This document shows positions 7,196-26,298 of a stretch of DNA of 28,651 bases, piece by piece (the first letter of the stretch is position 1; each line of letters begins with the position of its first letter). Location: positions 1 to 28,651 of IMG/VR virus record IMGVR_UViG_3300030099_001309, one strand, 5' to 3'. Position numbers and translations under genes: made by a program. Under the pieces are notes generated by a model. It saw nothing but the letters and a program-made list of their open reading frames with translations, made no database searches and had not been told where the DNA came from. The stretch comes from a virus.

Positions 7196-7676
7196 ACAAG
7201 TAATAGGATTTTTAGAAACGATAGCTGATAAGCATTATGAAATAAATAGCTTTCATAGTGGTGGGTTAGATGAAGTGGATATTAAGAAGCTAGGAGCAGA
7301 AGACTATGCTATATTATATGCAGACCCTGGAGAAGCTACTATTGATACTGGTGTTATGACCTATTCGTTTAAAATATATGTGATGGATATGGTTAATGAC
7401 CAAATTGAAGGTGATGCACCTAACAATCAACGATTAAATAGAGTAGATACATTTTCTGAAACTCTACAAATACTACACGATGTGATTAACGAATTTAAAC
7501 AATCTATTAATTCTAAGTCTTGGGTAGATAATGAAGTAGTATTAGAAACACCTATAATATGTGAAGCTGTAGTAGGTGAATTTGCTAATGAGTTAATCGG
7601 ATGGTCTGCTGATATATCAGTTGATGTAAACAACCCTAACAATCTTTGTATTGCACCAATAATCGCTAATTCATAG
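7182..7676 (+). CDS. Probable tail terminator/completion protein
   Basis: This 164-residue protein has the pattern of a short N-terminal helix (FRQVIGFLETIADKH), strands containing DYAILYADPG and MTYSFKIYVMDMV, a helix (VDTFSETLQILHDVINEFK), and final strands (ICEAVVGEFANELIGWSADIS). This alpha-beta layout, with FxIYVMDxV and a final GWSxxI strand, is recurrent in neck or tail-terminator proteins of Bacteroidota phages. It would cap the tail or join it to the head. It lies between the tail chaperone and a basic gp10-like gene, the usual place for tail completion functions. The assignment is by fold impression and position. Confidence 0.65.
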   Translation: MITFRQVIGFLETIADKHYEINSFHSGGLDEVDIKKLGAEDYAILYADPGEATIDTGVMTYSFKIYVMDMVNDQIEGDAPNNQRLNRVDTFSETLQILHDVINEFKQSINSKSWVDNEVVLETPIICEAVVGEFANELIGWSADISVDVNNPNNLCIAPIIANS

Positions 7677-8268: not shown

Positions 8269-9699
8269 ATGGCATTATCATTTGAACAAGAACCAATATC
8301 AGATTCAACAACATCACCTGTTATAACTAACTGGACACCTATTGTCCCTTATGTGTTATATCAGAACGCAAGTATTGCATCTTATTTTTATTATAAGCTA
8401 GTATTAGAGATTAGAATAGACGATGCTTCAGGAACACTTCTAGGTAAAATAAAACAACGTAGAAATGGTTATAGCGTAGATATAGCTGCGAATAAAGCTA
8501 GAGCAATATTTGATTTAAAAGACATTGTTAACAGTCAATTGCAAGATACTAACGCTGACCAAAATGCAACAACTAAAACAATACACAAAGTAGGTACTAA
8601 TTCTGCAACTACACCATTTAGTCAAAACAATAATCAATTCTTAACTATATATGTTAAGGGCTATCAAAACTACTCTACTGCGGCTAACACATCACCTGCT
8701 GATGTTACTTCAGGTTCTGTTAATGATACTAAATTCTATATAGCTGCATCCTTAGATTTAAACACAGCTAGGGGAACTGCTGATTTTCAAGATACTGCTT
8801 TTAGCTCTTATTCTTTAAGTGGTTCTACCTCTTTATTTTTAAGTGATCTACAAGATAGTAGTGCTGATAATATAGGTACTGTAAAAAGAAACTATATTCA
8901 ATCCACAGACTATCACACTATCGGTATGTTAAACGGTGTTAGTGATTTAGCTAGTGATGCTTATTTTATAGGAATACAATATTACGATTCTTCTAATAAT
9001 GTTATTAATTCACCTGGCGGTACAGCTATTGAATATATATCTAACACAAACGCTAATGGTGGTGCAAATCCTGATACTGAAGTTAATACTAATCCTGAAA
9101 GATTAATATACTTTGGATGTGGCGCTGCTAACTTAGAATCACAATCTAGGAACACACAAGCTAGACCGTCTGAATTTGATAATTGGGCGTACTATACTAT
9201 ACGTGCATACGATTCTGATGCAACTACTCCAAAATCTGCTCTTTATTATTTTATAAATCAAGACGGTTCTTGTAAGGGTTATAAGGTTAGAAGATTAGCT
9301 TGGCGTAATAGCTTAGGGTGCTTTGATTATTTTAACTTTAAAAAGAAATCTACTCAAACAATAAATGTAACTAGAAATAACTACAATACACTTTTAGGTA
9401 ATTTCAATAGTGATATGTATAGTTATAATAATTTTAGTAGAGGTAAAAATACTAGAAACACAACTGCTATTGTTAAGGAAGTAATAAACACAGATTGGAT
9501 TACAGAAGAAGATGCTGTATTACTAGAAGGTCTTATAGTTTCAACAAATATACAAATTGTAGAAAACGCAGACACTAACTATACTGTTCCTGTTTTAGTT
9601 ACTGACACTAGTTTTATTAAAAAGACTGTAGCTAATGATAAAATGATTAAATACACTATTAATATAGAATATGCAAACCCTATAAACACTAATTCATAA
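8269..9699 (+). CDS. Tail structural protein, probably distal tail/tail tip
   Basis: This 476-residue, mostly beta-strand protein is rich in Asn, Ser and Thr. It begins LSFEQEPISDSTTSPVITNW followed by VPYVLYQNASIASYFYYKLV, and the C-terminal third carries RRLAWRNSLGCFDYFNF and ITEEDAVLLEGLIVSTN. The LGCFDYFNF segment and final strands are of the kind found in distal tail or adaptor proteins of Bacteroidota phages. The stop (TAA, 9697-9699) overlaps the ATG of the giant tail gene by one base, so the two products are probably partners at the tail tip. There is no enzymatic motif. A tail tube identity is less likely because of its size and a separate tube candidate at 18080. Confidence 0.65.
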   Translation: MALSFEQEPISDSTTSPVITNWTPIVPYVLYQNASIASYFYYKLVLEIRIDDASGTLLGKIKQRRNGYSVDIAANKARAIFDLKDIVNSQLQDTNADQNATTKTIHKVGTNSATTPFSQNNNQFLTIYVKGYQNYSTAANTSPADVTSGSVNDTKFYIAASLDLNTARGTADFQDTAFSSYSLSGSTSLFLSDLQDSSADNIGTVKRNYIQSTDYHTIGMLNGVSDLASDAYFIGIQYYDSSNNVINSPGGTAIEYISNTNANGGANPDTEVNTNPERLIYFGCGAANLESQSRNTQARPSEFDNWAYYTIRAYDSDATTPKSALYYFINQDGSCKGYKVRRLAWRNSLGCFDYFNFKKKSTQTINVTRNNYNTLLGNFNSDMYSYNNFSRGKNTRNTTAIVKEVINTDWITEEDAVLLEGLIVSTNIQIVENADTNYTVPVLVTDTSFIKKTVANDKMIKYTINIEYANPINTNS

Positions 9700-12600
9700 T
9701 GGCTCAAACTAGATTAGTTGCATACAGAAAAGCTACAAGTGCTGCTACAGCAGATACAACTTATGAACTGGATTTACAAGAAAATCCTAGCATAGCTCTT
9801 AACTTTCAATTCTCTGACATTAAAGAACCTGAAACTAGAAAGGGTAGTTATTCTCAAACATTCAAATTACCGTTTACGGATAACAACAATGAGTTTTTTC
9901 AAAATTGGTTTAATGTTAATTTAGAAACATTAGTATTTAGTGCGAGATCTAAATTTGATGCTGTTTTATATGTGGGAACAATACCGCAATTTGAAGGCTT
10001 TATACAATTAAAATCAGTATATCAAAAAGCTCAATTATACGAAATAGTGTTAACTTCTAATACTGCTAATTTGTTCAGCACTATAGGAAATCAAAAACTA
10101 CAAGATGTATTTAAAAATGCAGACGGTAGTTATGACACACAACTGAATCACGTATATAGTTTTACTAGCACTACGAATAATACTTTATATAATTCTTGGA
10201 AGGGAGATAGTAGTGCCTTTGTAAACACATCAGGTGTATCATTAAGAGATACTTCTGTTAATGTTCAAAAGGTGGTATATCCTCTTTCAGTAACGCAGCC
10301 TAATTTTTATTTTAACCCTAATGAAACAGATGCAGACGGTAATAATGTTAAAAGATTTTTGCGTTTAGATGCAGCAGCAATTACTGCTATTAATGACTTT
10401 GAAGTATCATCTGCTCTTAGTGTGCCTTGGTCACAATTCAGACCTGCTGTTCAGTTAAAAACATTAATTAAATTAATTATAGCTAAAGCGGGATTTAGTT
10501 ATACTTCTGATTTTATAGATGGTGATTATTTCGGTAAGCTATTTATGACTACAGGAAATCATTTAGAATTATCAGCAACTCCAACAACTAATAGTAATGC
10601 TAACCCTAGCGGACTTATGGATGTTGGTAATAGTGGTGCTTGGGGTGTAGAAACAACTACATCAACATCTTTGCAATATAGTGAACATATAGTACCTGCG
10701 AATACTTCAACACCTGTTACTAACTTCACCGCTCCTATGGATGCTGATAATCTATGGAATGAAACATATAGCTATTTTACACGTGAAGATATTAATATGA
10801 CACAAATAAGTGTTAAGCACATTGTCGGTGCAGTTAATATAGCTGCTTATGCAGGTAGTGAAGTTGAATTTGAAGTTATCCTAAGACCATTTGACACATC
10901 GACTAACACACCTGAAATTGGCACTTTTCCATATGCTAGTATTCAATCGGCTGTTGCACCTAGTAGTGGGGGTGCTTTAGCTTTTCCTGGATTTTGGGAT
11001 TTTGACTTATCTAATATGCCTACAGGTGCATCTGCTCAAATAGTTGTCATTGTATCTAACTATAAAAGTAGTGGGGGAACAATGACCTTAAGCGTAGGAG
11101 GTGCTACTACTTTTGGAGCGGGTTTATTCAATATACCCTACGGATTACATAGCAATATAAGAATGGATTGGGTTGGGTATAGTACCGATATATATGGTGC
11201 TACAGTAGATGTGCCTTCTTGTATAGACCCTAGCATAACACAAAGAGATTTTCTAAAAGACATAATACAACGATTTAATTTAGTAGTGGCAACTGACCCT
11301 AATGATGCAGCAAACCTAATTATCGAACCATACAACGATTATTTGGATGATGGCGAAACTAAGTATTGGACAGACAAAATAGACACATCTAAAGAGATAA
11401 TTGTAAAAGATACTACACCTCTACAAAAAAAGACAATACATTTAACAGACCAAGAAGATGTTGATTTGTATAATAAAGAATTTAAAGAACGCTATCCTGA
11501 TATTAATGTTTACGGTCATCTAAAGATAGATGAAATAAATAATGATTTTGCTACTGGAGAACTTAAAAATAATTCTATATTCTCACCGTTTATAAATGGA
11601 CAGGTATTTGCAAATGAAAATACACAGCTCGGAACGTATCTTCCTAATTTATCTCCACATTATGAATTTAGCTATGAGGAGAAAGACGGTCAATATGTAA
11701 ATAAAATAAAGAAAACAAAACCTAAACTATTTTATTACAATGGTATTGCTACTACGGTTCTTGACACCGCAGGATCATCTACTTCTTATAATCTACACCG
11801 AGTATATAATAATTCAGGTACAGATACTGTAACTGCATATAACTTTACTTTATATCCTGTATGTAGTCCTTTTGATATTACACCGTCTAGTAACTTATAT
11901 ACACTAACTGCGGCTAACAAGAGTTTATATTGGAACTCATCTCCTCCCCTAGTTGGTTCATTGTCAATATTTAATTATACTAATAGCGTAGGTAGTTGGT
12001 TTAATAATGCTTTATACGGATTGTATTGGAAGCAATATTTAGATAATATATATAGTACAGAAGCTAGGATAATGGAATGTCATCTAAACTTAGATGAAAT
12101 AGATATATTTAATTTTAAATTTAATGATGAGATATTTATTAAAGACACCTACTGGCGTGTTCTTAATATATCCAATTATCAAGTGGGTGGTGATGCTTCA
12201 ACTAAAGTAACCTTATTAAAAGTAGTAGATGAAATAACACAATGCGAAGGATGCGATTATGTGTTAGGTGAAATAGATGGCTCTAACACTCTTGGTAATA
12301 CATTCTTTTTATGGTGTCCTGACACTAACCCAGGTTGCACTCCTGATTTAAGCCCTTCAGATTATTTAGGTTTATATACAAGTCCTGAATGTTGTAATTG
12401 TTCAGGTGGTATTCCTTTCTATTGGGCTACTGCACAAGCATCTAATGGTTTATATCCTTGTTTAGCTAATTCAGGTAGTTTACCTATCCGTATTCAAAGT
12501 ATATTTTCTAGCACTAACATATTATCAGGTGCAGATTTAAAAACTCTTATATATGAAAAAATTGGCGGTTTAAATAGACCGCTTATTAGGGGAGTGGATA

Positions 12601-22254: not shown

Positions 22255-22738
22255 TGGCGATTTATTAATGGTCGTAGATTCAAACGATACTACAGGCTCA
22301 GCACAAGGAACTTCGAAGCAAATGGATTTTAAATACCTTTTGCAAACAGATAAGATTTCTGTTAGCAATGCCGAGGTCTTAGATTTAGATGCTAACGAAA
22401 AAGTATTAGTAGGTGCATTGAGTGGTTATATGGTAAATGTTTTTAGTGTTACTGTTTTAACAACTTATGCAGCTTCAACTGAAAGTGCTAGAAAAGCATT
22501 AATTTTTGGATTTGATGATAGTAGTGACACTTATTATTGGGCTGTAATGCCTAGTATGATGGATAGTATTACTTTTGATGGCACTTATGTTGCACAAGCA
22601 AAAGACTCTTTAACATTACCAACATTAAACGCATCAATTCTAAACAAACCCTTTGTTTGTTGGGCGGAAGGTACTGGATTCAATGGTGGTTGGTCAATGG
22701 ATATTTATGTAACTTATTCTTATACAAAAATAATATGA
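22202..22738 (+). CDS. Virion surface/fibre-like protein (178 aa)
   Basis: This 178-residue protein begins MAGQRLTSKTALTQQVGSGD and continues LLMVVDSNDTTGSAQGTSKQ. This N-terminal pattern is typical of phage fibre or head-decoration proteins that anchor to the virion. The remainder is beta-rich (ALIFGFDDSSDTYYWAVMPS, FVCWAEGTGFNGGWSMDIYV). It probably forms a short surface fibre. It is coupled by ATGA to the following secreted-protein gene, at the border between virion and envelope genes. Confidence 0.65.
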   Translation: MAGQRLTSKTALTQQVGSGDLLMVVDSNDTTGSAQGTSKQMDFKYLLQTDKISVSNAEVLDLDANEKVLVGALSGYMVNVFSVTVLTTYAASTESARKALIFGFDDSSDTYYWAVMPSMMDSITFDGTYVAQAKDSLTLPTLNASILNKPFVCWAEGTGFNGGWSMDIYVTYSYTKII

Positions 22739-23745
22739 TTAAATATATATTTTTATTATTGCCCTTATTTGCAATAGCACAAAATGACTTTTTTAAATAT
22801 GCTACGTTTTATACTTCAATGAGTATAAACACAAGCATGGTAGAAGATCAAGATTATATAGCAGTAGATAAGGGTTATTTAGATGTCACAGAAGTTAATC
22901 CCTATGACTACAACTTAACTATAGGGCTAAGAAAAATAGCTAGATTTGATTATGAGTACAAAGTTAAAACGTGGTATTACGGTACTGAAAAAGCTGTTGC
23001 AGACAATGTTACTATTGGTAATAGCGTTGGTTGGGAGTATCTATTTAATTATTCATTTATACGTAATCGTGGTGATAAATTTACTAATTCAGATTTTTGG
23101 TTACGATATTTGGGAGAAAGATGCGTAACAAAAGCACAGATAAAAAATGATGAAAGACGTAATTTAGAATTTTATTCTTTTGACACTAGATTTAGATTAC
23201 AGAAAGGGAACTTTGACTTTACACTAGGTGCAGTTGCTAGACAGCATCCAGTATATCATATATTACCAATACAAGATTTTTGGGTTAGCGGTGAAAACAC
23301 CTTTAATGACTTAGCAGAAGATTTCGGATATTCCACACAATATGTGCAAGGTAATTGGCACTGGTTTAATAACGGTGAATTAATAGCAACTTCAAATGAT
23401 GAGTTTTACAAGCATTATTTCGGTGAAGCTATAGCTGACTATAACCAAGAGCAATTGGATGCGTTAGGAGGCGTTTATGAGCTTTCTGCGGTTGTTGGTG
23501 TTGCTTATTACAAGTACACTAATGAAGCATGGCTACATACTTGGGTTAATTTAATGCCTTTACATTACGGTTTAAGTGAATATAGCCACGAATATAATAA
23601 TGCACCTTTAGATGTTGATGCAGGTATTGTAAGTGGTTGGAGAATAACTAAGCATTTAGGTGTGTTTGTAGAAGGTACATATTTAAACTATTGGGAGAAA
23701 CCAATATATGAATGTAAGCTAGGGTTTAACTATTTAATTTTTTAA
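22735..23745 (+). CDS. Secreted protein, probable outer-membrane beta-barrel
   Basis: The ATG at 22735 overlaps the preceding stop as ATGA and is directly followed by a signal peptide (MIKYIFLLLPLFAIAQ). A longer frame from 22657 would bury the signal and was rejected. The mature protein, about 320 residues, has repeated aromatic-capped strands (NLTIGLRKIARFDYEYKVKT, RRNLEFYSFDTRFRLQKGNF, DFTLGAVARQ, GVFVEGTYLNYW) and ends in a terminal Phe (KLGFNYLIF), as expected for outer-membrane barrels inserted by BAM. A phage gene for such a protein may alter the host surface, exclude other phages or assist lysis. It may also be an inner-surface or periplasmic component. No family was recognised. Confidence 0.8.
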   Translation: MIKYIFLLLPLFAIAQNDFFKYATFYTSMSINTSMVEDQDYIAVDKGYLDVTEVNPYDYNLTIGLRKIARFDYEYKVKTWYYGTEKAVADNVTIGNSVGWEYLFNYSFIRNRGDKFTNSDFWLRYLGERCVTKAQIKNDERRNLEFYSFDTRFRLQKGNFDFTLGAVARQHPVYHILPIQDFWVSGENTFNDLAEDFGYSTQYVQGNWHWFNNGELIATSNDEFYKHYFGEAIADYNQEQLDALGGVYELSAVVGVAYYKYTNEAWLHTWVNLMPLHYGLSEYSHEYNNAPLDVDAGIVSGWRITKHLGVFVEGTYLNYWEKPIYECKLGFNYLIF

Positions 23746-23747
23746 CA

Positions 23748-24518
23748 ATGTATAGAATAATTACTTTATTATTATTTGTTGCATCATTTGGATTTGCACA
23801 AGATTATGATTTTCAAGAACTATGTATAGAATGTGCAGAATCAGAAGGTTATTATTGCGGTGATGACCCGAGTAATTGGACTCAATATGCACCTAATGGA
23901 TGCGTTATAAATCAATGGTTAAATGATGGATGGTTAGATTGTGTAGATGGGTCGGACGAGAACGGGGCAGTGCCGACCTCTCCATTAGACTGTGCTCCAC
24001 CAATACCTGAATGTGATACTGTATTTATTGAAATACCTTTTATAGAATGGATATATGACACGGTTGAAGTAGAAGTACCGTTTTATATATACGAAACAAT
24101 TATACAATTAGACACAATAATAGAAACAGAATATATTACACAAATAGTAATAGATACCGTAGAGATAGAAACATTAGTACCTGAATATATATATATAACT
24201 GACACTGTAATGGTATATGAAGATATATTGGATACTTTATATGTAGATGTGATTGAAGAAGTAGAAGTGATTGTGTTTGATACAATAATAGAAACACAAT
24301 ATGTTGAGATTCTAGTTACTGATACTGTTATAGAATATGTGGAAATAATAAACACAGAATATATAGACTGCGACACTGGAATGCCTTGTAATTCAGCAAT
24401 TCAAGAAGTAGTGGATAAATCAAAAAATACTGGTTTAATTTACAACCTTAAAGGACAGGCGATTAAGGTTCGTGAAGGTCTATACATTGAAAATGGTAAA
24501 ATAAAATATAAATTATAA
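23748..24518 (+). CDS. Secreted LDLa-like protein with DT repeats and T9SS-like C terminus
   Basis: This 256-residue protein has a signal peptide at residues 1-17 (LLLFVASFGFAQ). Residues 26-71 are Cys-rich (C26, C29, C37, C52, C65) and end in GWLDCVDGSDE, the calcium-binding signature of LDL-receptor class A modules. From 90 to 207, eight DTV/DTI/DTL units recur every 10-18 residues, each followed by strand residues, resembling stalk linkers in secreted Bacteroidota proteins. The end (IYNLKGQAIKVREGLYIENG, then KIKYKL) looks like the short C-terminal sorting tail of type IX secretion cargo. It could be exported to the cell surface by the host. It lies between a probable outer-membrane protein and a holin-like gene. 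Function is unknown. Confidence 0.8.
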   Translation: MYRIITLLLFVASFGFAQDYDFQELCIECAESEGYYCGDDPSNWTQYAPNGCVINQWLNDGWLDCVDGSDENGAVPTSPLDCAPPIPECDTVFIEIPFIEWIYDTVEVEVPFYIYETIIQLDTIIETEYITQIVIDTVEIETLVPEYIYITDTVMVYEDILDTLYVDVIEEVEVIVFDTIIETQYVEILVTDTVIEYVEIINTEYIDCDTGMPCNSAIQEVVDKSKNTGLIYNLKGQAIKVREGLYIENGKIKYKL

Positions 24519-24520
24519 TT

Positions 24521-24757
24521 ATGGAAATATTTAAAAACGATAACATTTGGAATGAAAAAGCAATAATAGGATTTGTTGCTTTTATAATAATGTGTATAAT
24601 AATGATAGCTGATCTACTGACAGGGTGGATAGGAAAAGACTTAGTAATAAATGAATTTGTTTACGATTCTTTTGTATGGGTTGTTTTAGGTTGTTTTGGA
24701 ATTAGTGGAGTAGAAAAGTTTAGTAAAAGTAACTGTAAAGATTGCCCTAAAAAATGA
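24521..24757 (+). CDS. Small two-TM membrane protein, holin-like
   Basis: This 78-residue protein has two hydrophobic segments (about 15-33, IIGFVAFIIMCIIMIADLL, and about 48-63, VYDSFVWVVLGCFGIS) and a charged tail with two Cys (NCKDCPKK). Small two-TM proteins beside an endolysin are often holins or holin regulators. A second, 3-TM candidate holin is encoded at 25915, so this one might be an antiholin or work in the same complex. It overlaps the next gene by ATGA. Confidence 0.7.
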   Translation: MEIFKNDNIWNEKAIIGFVAFIIMCIIMIADLLTGWIGKDLVINEFVYDSFVWVVLGCFGISGVEKFSKSNCKDCPKK

Positions 24758-25035
24758 AAGAACTTTCCGAAGAATCCAAATTTGAAGTAAGCCTAAAAAC
24801 GTTAGGTGGAATAGCAGTATTAATAGCTACATTAGTCGGTATGTGGTTCACACTACAAGCTGATATTGAAGAAGCTAAACTTCTTCCTGAGCCACCGCCA
24901 CCTGAAGTTACTAAAATGGAGTTTGATATGAAGGATAAAATGATACGTCAAACTATAATGACAACACAAGAGGATGTTCAAGAAATAAAGGAAGATATGA
25001 AGTATCTTAGGAATAAACTAGACGAAATGCAATGA
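24754..25035 (+). CDS. Single-TM coiled-coil protein, possible inner-membrane lysis component
   Basis: This 93-residue protein has a short cytoplasmic N terminus, one hydrophobic segment (about 16-33, LGGIAVLIATLVGMWFTL), a Pro-rich hinge (LPEPPPPEV) and a charged helix to the C terminus (TTQEDVQEIKEDMKYLRNKL). One TM followed by a periplasmic coiled coil is the shape of an i-spanin. No lipoprotein o-spanin is recognised, so the assignment is tentative. It sits in the lysis cassette with ATGA overlaps on both sides. Confidence 0.65.
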   Translation: MKELSEESKFEVSLKTLGGIAVLIATLVGMWFTLQADIEEAKLLPEPPPPEVTKMEFDMKDKMIRQTIMTTQEDVQEIKEDMKYLRNKLDEMQ

Positions 25036-25421
25036 ATATAAGCACGTTTCTATATATACTAATGATGTTGTTATTCTTTTTTGTTGGAATAGCTAGTGGA
25101 CAAGAATTTTTAACAGAAGCTAATTTTAACGATAAAACAGCTAAGGATATTGTAGCGGTGGAATTTTGGGTTGATTGGAACAGCAATAATCAATTTAACG
25201 AATTAGAAGAATTAAAAGACTGTCAAGCATATAGAGTAGATATAGCACGTTTTCCTAGTTTACAAAACAAATATGAAGTAGCTTCAATTCCTGTTATTAT
25301 TATATTTGAAAGCGGAGAAGAAAAACAACGCTTTTTGCCTAATATAATGTTTGAATTAGATGCAACAAAAAAGGATATACAAAAGAGTATAGACCAATTG
25401 ATGATAGCTAAATTTAATTAA
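25032..25421 (+). CDS. Secreted thioredoxin-fold protein lacking the active-site cysteines
   Basis: This 129-residue protein has a signal or anchor segment (residues 5-22, TFLYILMMLLFFFVGIAS). The rest follows the thioredoxin plan: VAVEFWVDWNSNN at 41-53, where thioredoxins have WCxxC; YRVDIARFPSLQNKYEVASI at 67-86, corresponding to the strand and helix after the active site; cis-Pro at 87 (SIPVIIIFESGE); and a final helix. Both active-site Cys are replaced, so redox activity is unlikely and a binding role is more plausible. There is one remaining Cys at 64. It lies directly upstream of the endolysin. It may assist envelope maturation or regulate the lysis enzyme; both are inference. Confidence 0.75.
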   Translation: MNISTFLYILMMLLFFFVGIASGQEFLTEANFNDKTAKDIVAVEFWVDWNSNNQFNELEELKDCQAYRVDIARFPSLQNKYEVASIPVIIIFESGEEKQRFLPNIMFELDATKKDIQKSIDQLMIAKFN

Positions 25422-25918
25422 TGAGATTAACTAAGAATTTTACATTATCAGAACTCACAAAATCTAATACAGCATTAAGATTAGGTATAGATAACACACC
25501 AACGAAAGAAGGTATAATAAAATTGAGACTGTATGCCACGGAAATTCTACAACCCCTCCGTGATGTTCTTGGGGCTATCCGAATAACAAGTGGCTACAGG
25601 TCTCCACAGCTTTCAGAAGCAATTGGTTCATCATCTAATTCACAGCATTGCAGATATGAAGCGTGTGATATGCAATTTGTTAAACGTGGTAAAATGGACA
25701 ATCTTAAAATATATAATGCTCTTATAGATTTAGATTTAGATTACGACCAATGTATATTAGAATTTGGTGATAGCACAGCTAATAAAGACCCACGCTATCC
25801 TGCTTGGATTCACCTTAGCTGGAAAATAACTGACAACAGAAGGCAAACATTAGTGGCATATAAAGATGATAATAACAAAACTAAATACAGACCTTTAATT
25901 GAATATAAATCATTATGA
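25421..25918 (+). CDS. Endolysin, M15-family peptidase
   Basis: This 165-residue protein matches peptidase M15 (D-Ala-D-Ala carboxypeptidase or L-Ala-D-Glu-type endolysins). Its N-terminal helix is NFTLSELTKSNTALRLGIDN, then ITSGYRSPQLSEAIGSSSNS, with zinc ligands H76 and D83 (SQHCRYEACDMQF) and H131 (WIHLSW). It has no signal peptide, so it needs the holin to reach peptidoglycan. It cleaves the peptide stems of peptidoglycan. It overlaps the preceding stop by one base and the holin start by ATGA. The length is normal for a stand-alone catalytic domain with no cell-wall-binding module. Confidence 0.88.
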   Translation: MRLTKNFTLSELTKSNTALRLGIDNTPTKEGIIKLRLYATEILQPLRDVLGAIRITSGYRSPQLSEAIGSSSNSQHCRYEACDMQFVKRGKMDNLKIYNALIDLDLDYDQCILEFGDSTANKDPRYPAWIHLSWKITDNRRQTLVAYKDDNNKTKYRPLIEYKSL

Positions 25919-26298
25919 GTATTATAGGAAAAATATTAGGTGGAGATGTATTAAAGAATGTTAATATGATTGTTGATAACGTTATAACCACTGATGCCGA
26001 GAAGAAGGAATTAAAGATTAAATTTAAAGAAGTTTTAGCTAAAGCAGAAAGCAACGCACAAGAACAAGTTACTAGGCGTTGGGAAGCGGATGCAAAAGCA
26101 GGATGGTTACCTGCTAACATACGCCCCTTAACTTTAGCATTTTTAACTATGATATTTGTAATAATATCATTTTTTGATGGCAATGTAGGAGGATTCAGTA
26201 TGAACCCAATATACGCACCAATTTATACCAATCTTTTAATGGTAATATATGGTTCTTATTTTGCGGGTAGAACGATTGAAAAAATTAAAAAAGCATAA
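25915..26298 (+). CDS. Holin, 3-TM family
   Basis: This 127-residue protein has an N-terminal cytoplasmic helical region with a charged stretch (TTDAEKKELKIKFKEVLAKA, TRRWEADAKAGWLPANIRP). This is followed by a TM segment (LTLAFLTMIFVIISFF) and a second one near the C terminus (IYTNLLMVIYGSYFAGRTIE). The WLPANIRPL motif and the YFAGRTIEK end fit the GTA-type 3-TM holin family. It would permeabilise the inner membrane and release the endolysin. It directly follows the endolysin. Its stop region also contains the putative start of the phosphoesterase, where the expected ATGA overlap is ATAA. Confidence 0.8.
   Translation: MSIIGKILGGDVLKNVNMIVDNVITTDAEKKELKIKFKEVLAKAESNAQEQVTRRWEADAKAGWLPANIRPLTLAFLTMIFVIISFFDGNVGGFSMNPIYAPIYTNLLMVIYGSYFAGRTIEKIKKA

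Follow-up and report, generated by a model that had tools for sequence, protein, structure and literature searches.

The window, by which we mean the whole stretch of DNA analysed, is a 28,651-base IMG/VR record carrying phage structural genes and then lysis genes (Table 1). Its reading frame of 23748–24518 is confirmed as real and encodes a protein built, in order, from a signal peptide, a Cys module, a stalk of variable length, a Cys pair and a tail of 42–44 residues. A first IMG/VR scan returned 30 relatives, far above chance, and a profile made from the alignment of these 30 sequences confirmed LDLa-like relatives on at least 262 IMG/VR contigs, all of them metagenomic and many incomplete. 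The layout is constant throughout the family: the 99 distinct full-length proteins span 148–310 residues, with all parts conserved and the stalk alone varying much. The signal peptide, the Cys-rich module with DCVDGSDE and the IYNLKGQ...GLYIENGK end named in the original prediction are all found in this frame, as are the DTV/DTI/DTL units, exactly eight of them, a ninth DT being part of CDTG. The signal peptide reads MYRIITLLLFVASFGFA followed by Q (by inspection), its FAQ/NAQ/FGQ-type ending is kept across the alignment of 30 relatives, and the mature N-terminus is probably Gln18 or Asp19.

Table 1. Features of the cassette and its neighbours in the window.
Feature	Position	Strand	Remarks
Outer-membrane beta-barrel partner, 336 aa, signal peptide, ends in Phe	22735..23745	+	model with ~12 strands
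LDLa-like head / DT-stalk / T9SS-like tail protein	23748..24518	+	256 aa
Sec signal peptide, residues 1–18	23748..23801	+	by inspection; N-terminal helix in model
Cys-rich head, residues 26–82	23823..23993	+	PF00057 E 7e-4; profile matches to LDLa-bearing PDB entries
Putative calcium-cage part, W57–E71	23916..23960	+	D60, D64, D70 and E71 in 99/99
DT stalk, residues 89–206	24012..24365	+	free of Lys, Arg and His; length differs widely between relatives
Invariant Cys pair C208/C214 (CDTGMPC)	24369..24389	+	alignment of 30 relatives
T9SS-like short C-terminal signal, residues 217–256	24396..24515	+	pattern from PMC11969387
Small hydrophobic protein, two apparent membrane helices, holin-like, facultative	24521..24757	+	61/110 loci; helices by inspection
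Inner-membrane protein with a single apparent membrane helix, a Pro-rich linker and a periplasmic part resembling a coiled coil	24754..25035	+	103/110 loci
Exported thioredoxin-fold protein, catalytic CxxC replaced by NxxN	25032..25421	+	PF00085 over cut-off; 100/110 loci
M15 peptidase endolysin (neighbour)	25421..25918	+	phrog_894, PF08291
Holin (neighbour)	25915..26298	+	phrog_3427

What the original prediction missed is that this gene belongs to a conserved envelope cassette of several genes. The product of the upstream gene was modelled with a pTM of 0.66 and its best structural matches are outer-membrane barrels. This gene is present at 109 of the 110 loci with an LDLa-like gene, the single exception being cut off, and at nearly all of 79 barrel loci the LDLa-like gene lies ~6 nt downstream of it; in four of them another gene intervenes and one ends too early to judge. 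Profiles for PorP/SprF and PorV gave zero matches at E 1 to the barrel in seven records, a Pfam search of 40 barrels returned no barrel family, and PorV is absent among the barrel fold matches shown, which are a subset of all matches. For an OMPLA-like or autotransporter function there is resemblance in fold but no catalytic motif was seen, and we do not claim one. In Flavobacterium johnsoniae, type B T9SS cargo is encoded beside its PorP/SprF barrel shuttle (PMC12618676), and here too the gene of a predicted secreted surface protein adjoins a barrel gene. However, the phage genes differ from those pairs in that the barrel has no PorP/SprF match, the signals in sister cassettes (below) are of type A and the genes are phage-borne. 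Since the barrel matches neither PorP/SprF nor PorV, the likeness is one of arrangement and not of membership.

Further downstream, the inner-membrane coiled-coil protein has an i-spanin-like topology and at least 563 relatives in IMG/VR, where the thioredoxin-fold protein has at least 489. NxxN takes the place of CxxC in all 80 distinct copies of the latter and the cis-Pro region is kept in 79 of them, so that it looks like a conserved redox-dead thioredoxin with both catalytic cysteines exchanged for asparagine. Some loci carry additional genes. A GH16 glycoside hydrolase gene is found between the barrel and LDLa-like genes in some phages (L062, 9274–9981; in L187 straight after the barrel), and a Staphylococcal-nuclease-like gene lies in or beside the cassette in L053 (10977–11339, PF00565), L062 (13014–13430) and L347 (6617–7072). 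In L182 and L183 the first gene following the barrel encodes an apparent lipoprotein of 63 aa that has DT motifs of its own, a possible o-spanin-like partner. In L034, small basic proteins with MAFKMKG-like starts (9521–9970, 10771–11046 and 11799–12548) are interleaved with the cassette; two proteins of this type were checked and gave no family match.

The head resembles the calcium site of LDLa modules by sequence and is not a canonical LDLa. The family profile matched 42 PDB sequences, LDLa-bearing judging by their names, and PF00057 matches 24 of the 30 aligned family members (best E 4e-4). In the window protein this match covers residues 51–72, half of the profile, with 20.1 bits, which is below the curated cut-off of 24.1 bits. 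The W-x-x-D-G-x-x-D-C-x-D-x-x-D-E cage of LDLa is recognisable, an aromatic residue precedes the second Cys as in LDLa, and the four putative acidic calcium ligands are invariant in all 99 proteins. Canonical LDLa modules contain six cysteines, paired 1–3, 2–5 and 4–6. We take C29, C37, C52, C65 and C82 to be Cys1, 2, 3, 5 and 6, while Cys4 is absent from 99/99 proteins, its place (Asn59 in the window protein) being taken by Asn in 98 and by Gly in one, so the canonical disulfide set is not found here. Unlike LDLa, the head also has an extra invariant cysteine, C26, N-terminal to Cys1, and 14 residues between Cys2 and Cys3; we predict that C26 could pair with C82, and that the other disulfides would be C29–C52 and C37–C65. 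Fold matches of the template-free head model are mostly LDLa modules, with Foldseek E values of 0.3 or above and Z of at most 3.3 for a module of only ~40 residues. The LDLa assignment of the original prediction therefore survives in part: the acidic cage is invariant and the sequence and fold matches are nearly all LDLa, but with Cys4 lost throughout and PF00057 under its cut-off the head must be described as non-canonical.

Over the 99 distinct proteins the length of the stalk ranges from 17 to 177 residues, with head and tail constant, which gives it the appearance of a spacer that varies in length. Not one Lys, Arg or His was found among the 9,141 stalk residues counted, the charge averages about −23 for every 100 residues and a stalk can contain as many as 12 DT units. 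The DT-to-DT units are of even length in 214 of 240 distinct cases; a simple hydrophobic alternation was not supported, as the lag-2 autocorrelation is negative. In the structural model most of the stalk has pLDDT below 30.

The C-terminal tail fits the published pattern of short T9SS signals. Such signals measure 40–51 residues and are cleaved in front of a small residue that is followed by Ile; motif B contains Tyr and Gly, motif D reads GxYI, motif E is basic, and a sheet of three strands is predicted, in some cases together with a helix (PMC11969387). Our tail, which from A217 to the C-terminus comprises 40 residues, shows a candidate cleavage site NS/AI, motif B at Y232..G236, motif D (GxYI) at 244–247 and a basic motif E, and it is modelled as a helix (218–228) and three strands with pLDDT ~80; motifs B and D are present in 99/99 proteins. 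The small-Ile site, Tyr..Gly, GxYI, basic end and three strands are thus all shared with the described signals of Prevotella intermedia (PMC11969387). Unlike those, the tail belongs to a marine phage protein whose export is predicted, and the candidate site is ~12 residues from motif B as compared to 6–11. TIGR04183, the type of profile that the original prediction had proposed for comparison, did not match the LDLa-like tail, nor did the other NCBIfam models or PF18962. Among 177,635 PDB sequences the tail profile had few matches; the best lies at the C-terminus of an arabinanase that is secreted (4kca, E 0.034), and another, at the C-terminus of 7jvi (E 1), is likewise a tail of this type, neither match being significant alone. 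Searches of phages and plasmids with the tail alone and with a generic T9SS consensus found no matches, so we used the tails of phage cargo as a stand-in for host-side T9SS tails. Against the canonical T9SS tails of such cargo the LDLa tail beats 200/200 column permutations (E 0.002), and against five short tails from sister cassettes, where the head is unrelated, it scores higher still and again beats 200/200 permutations (E 8e-6). The idea of a T9SS-like tail thus gains from the short-signal pattern, the profile likeness to real T9SS tails and the canonical cargo of relatives, while the TIGR04183 result speaks against it.

These sister cassettes lack the LDLa-like gene but keep the core of barrel, coiled-coil and thioredoxin-fold genes; 63 of the 80 coiled-coil loci have all three and no LDLa-like gene. 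TIGR04183 scores over its curated cut-off in 37 of 50 records without LDLa, mostly in reading frames of ~670–1,180 residues, and in none of the 49 LDLa records; since the LDLa group corresponds to a single clade, independence is overstated by the Fisher value (2e-16) for this comparison. In 29 of 38 sister cases no more than 60 nt separate the end of the T9SS domain from the start of the barrel gene downstream. All four sister cargo proteins tested score above the PF18962 cut-off, and these four bear GDG-type motifs and GCTDxxxxNYxPxAxxDxxSC repeats. Long arrays of the same repeat are seen in T9SS cargo of 700–1,140 residues in L290 (1497–4922), L327 (1930–4914) and L303 (2730–4898), and the head of some such cargo looks LNR-like (GDGFCDDG...DAGDC), with no Pfam match. 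At five further loci the thioredoxin-fold gene is followed, at the cassette's end or close to it, by a gene for one more secreted protein whose head differs and whose short T9SS-like tail was picked up with the profile of the LDLa tail or by inspection: L291 (6634–7176), L334 (889–1434), L299 (642–1181), L269 (6324–6833) and L279 (2389–2997), some with heads of the DTYGDGWNGA type. In the barrel tree a single clade (one change, support 100/94) unites the LDLa-paired barrels; the short-tail cargo falls within its sister clade, and the canonical cargo goes with a deep clade. As the barrel clades match the cargo, barrel type and cargo type go together, and the single LDLa clade means that cargo replacement may have been one event. 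Taken with the position of the cargo next to the barrel, the 37/50 versus 0/49 distribution indicates that the LDLa-like protein probably replaces the T9SS cargo of the sister cassettes. Earlier reports describe T9SS cargo encoded by phages, namely by Cryophage (PMC7468147) and by BACON-bearing gut phages (PMC6949934). As in those phages, the products carry a host T9SS signal and the cargo differs among related phages; in contrast to those single cargo genes, cargo here is tied to a cassette of barrel, inner-membrane and thioredoxin-fold genes, and the LDLa tail is short.

The cassette is found in phages of the window type (~29 kb), next to the M15 endolysin and holin, and in larger ones, including an 89 kb record with a terminase nearest to crAss-like phages. 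It is thus common to crAss-like and unrelated phages, and it is frequent in marine phage contigs. From the terminase relatives (Bacteroides, Parabacteroides, Flavobacterium and Cellulophaga), together with the T9SS signals and the style of the signal peptides, we infer a Bacteroidota host, and the carriers are probably marine phages of Bacteroidota. The LDLa-like protein, its barrel and two distant barrels found no tblastn match among isolate phages (50,697 records). Pattern scans of sequenced-genome contigs for LDLa and barrel gave zero confirmed relatives, with confirmation done via the window protein, so that distant ones could be missed.

What is the role of this cassette then? Its features suggest that the infected cell displays the LDLa-like protein on its surface. 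Sec would take the protein into the periplasm and the 40-residue tail, acting as a short T9SS signal, would carry it over the host outer membrane, where the tail would probably be cut off after PCNS. The head, presumably held together by its calcium site, would then be presented on the stalk, which is longer in some phages than in others. The neighbouring barrel may serve as a dedicated outer-membrane partner, either shuttle or anchor, in contact with the tail, and the coiled-coil and NxxN thioredoxin-fold proteins would complete an envelope-spanning cassette. Since the cassette sits among late genes, near those for lysis, it probably acts late. The surface would in this way be covered or remodelled so as to block binding of other phages or of the phage's own post-lysis progeny, and masking of the surface late in infection appears to be the most likely purpose. 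We lean slightly towards this reading as a whole, that is, a Sec/T9SS-exported surface cargo partnered by a barrel in an envelope-spanning cassette for late surface masking. Against it stand the failure of TIGR04183 and PF18962 to match the tail, the lack of a PorP/SprF or PorV match for the barrel, and the endolysin and holin neighbours, which fit lysis. A bolder version, possible but in our opinion rather doubtful, is that the cassette represents a phage-owned T9SS branch, in which the barrel would be a new shuttle family that recognises the short tail and would receive its cargo with help from the coiled-coil and NxxN proteins, so that calcium-dependent receptor-like proteins are put on the host surface before lysis.

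The endolysin and holin neighbours, with the i-spanin-like coiled-coil protein, make a lysis module the main rival, unlikely though we consider it to be. The coiled-coil protein, the stalked LDLa-like protein and the barrel would bridge the periplasm and, once the endolysin has done its work, disrupt the outer membrane in place of spanins, with stalk length reflecting the width of the envelope. Not only do an M15 endolysin and a holin lie beside the cassette in the window, and an amidase in L327, but 66 of 79 LDLa loci have in the fetched flank an M15/amidase relative, DUF5675 or a protein like that at 7340–7948 in L290 (the last two of unknown function). A survey found that Bacteroidetes phages use unimolecular spanins only (PMC12596118), so that spanins of two parts would be unexpected in these phages, which we count in favour of such a module. 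The arrangement is indeed reminiscent of spanins in having a coiled-coil inner-membrane partner and an outer-membrane partner near lysis genes. However, neither the LDLa-like protein nor the barrel of the window has a lipobox (by inspection), its cassette has no lipoprotein partner, and spanins include neither a barrel nor T9SS-like cargo. The tail resembles a T9SS signal, the 700–1,170-residue T9SS cargo of sister cassettes is ill-suited to a spanin, stalks of 17 residues could hardly bridge the periplasm, and some cassettes are found among structural genes.

The strict pairing of barrel and LDLa-like genes, the confinement of LDLa-paired barrels to one clade and the failure of T9SS profiles to match the tail would also agree with a simple accessory of the barrel, such as a plug or assembly factor, whose tail binds the barrel from inside without any T9SS. 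Yet true T9SS signals adjoin the same barrel family in the sister cassettes and the tail matches the short-signal pattern, and we judge this explanation to be quite improbable. A virion component, for example a fibre or decoration protein, might be expected from genes in or beside the structural region, and phage tails commonly have stalked, repeat-bearing proteins. The signal peptide conserved in all members and the constant outer-membrane barrel partner disfavour such a role, and there is no PHROG structural match, so we see very little chance of it.

Phages that remodel the host surface are known mainly from Proteobacteria. If the late display of T9SS cargo is confirmed for the phages described here, type IX secretion would be a routine late function for phages, served by a new barrel family that is paired with T9SS cargo, and the LDLa tail would offer a minimal 40-residue signal for probing how T9SS cargo is recognised.
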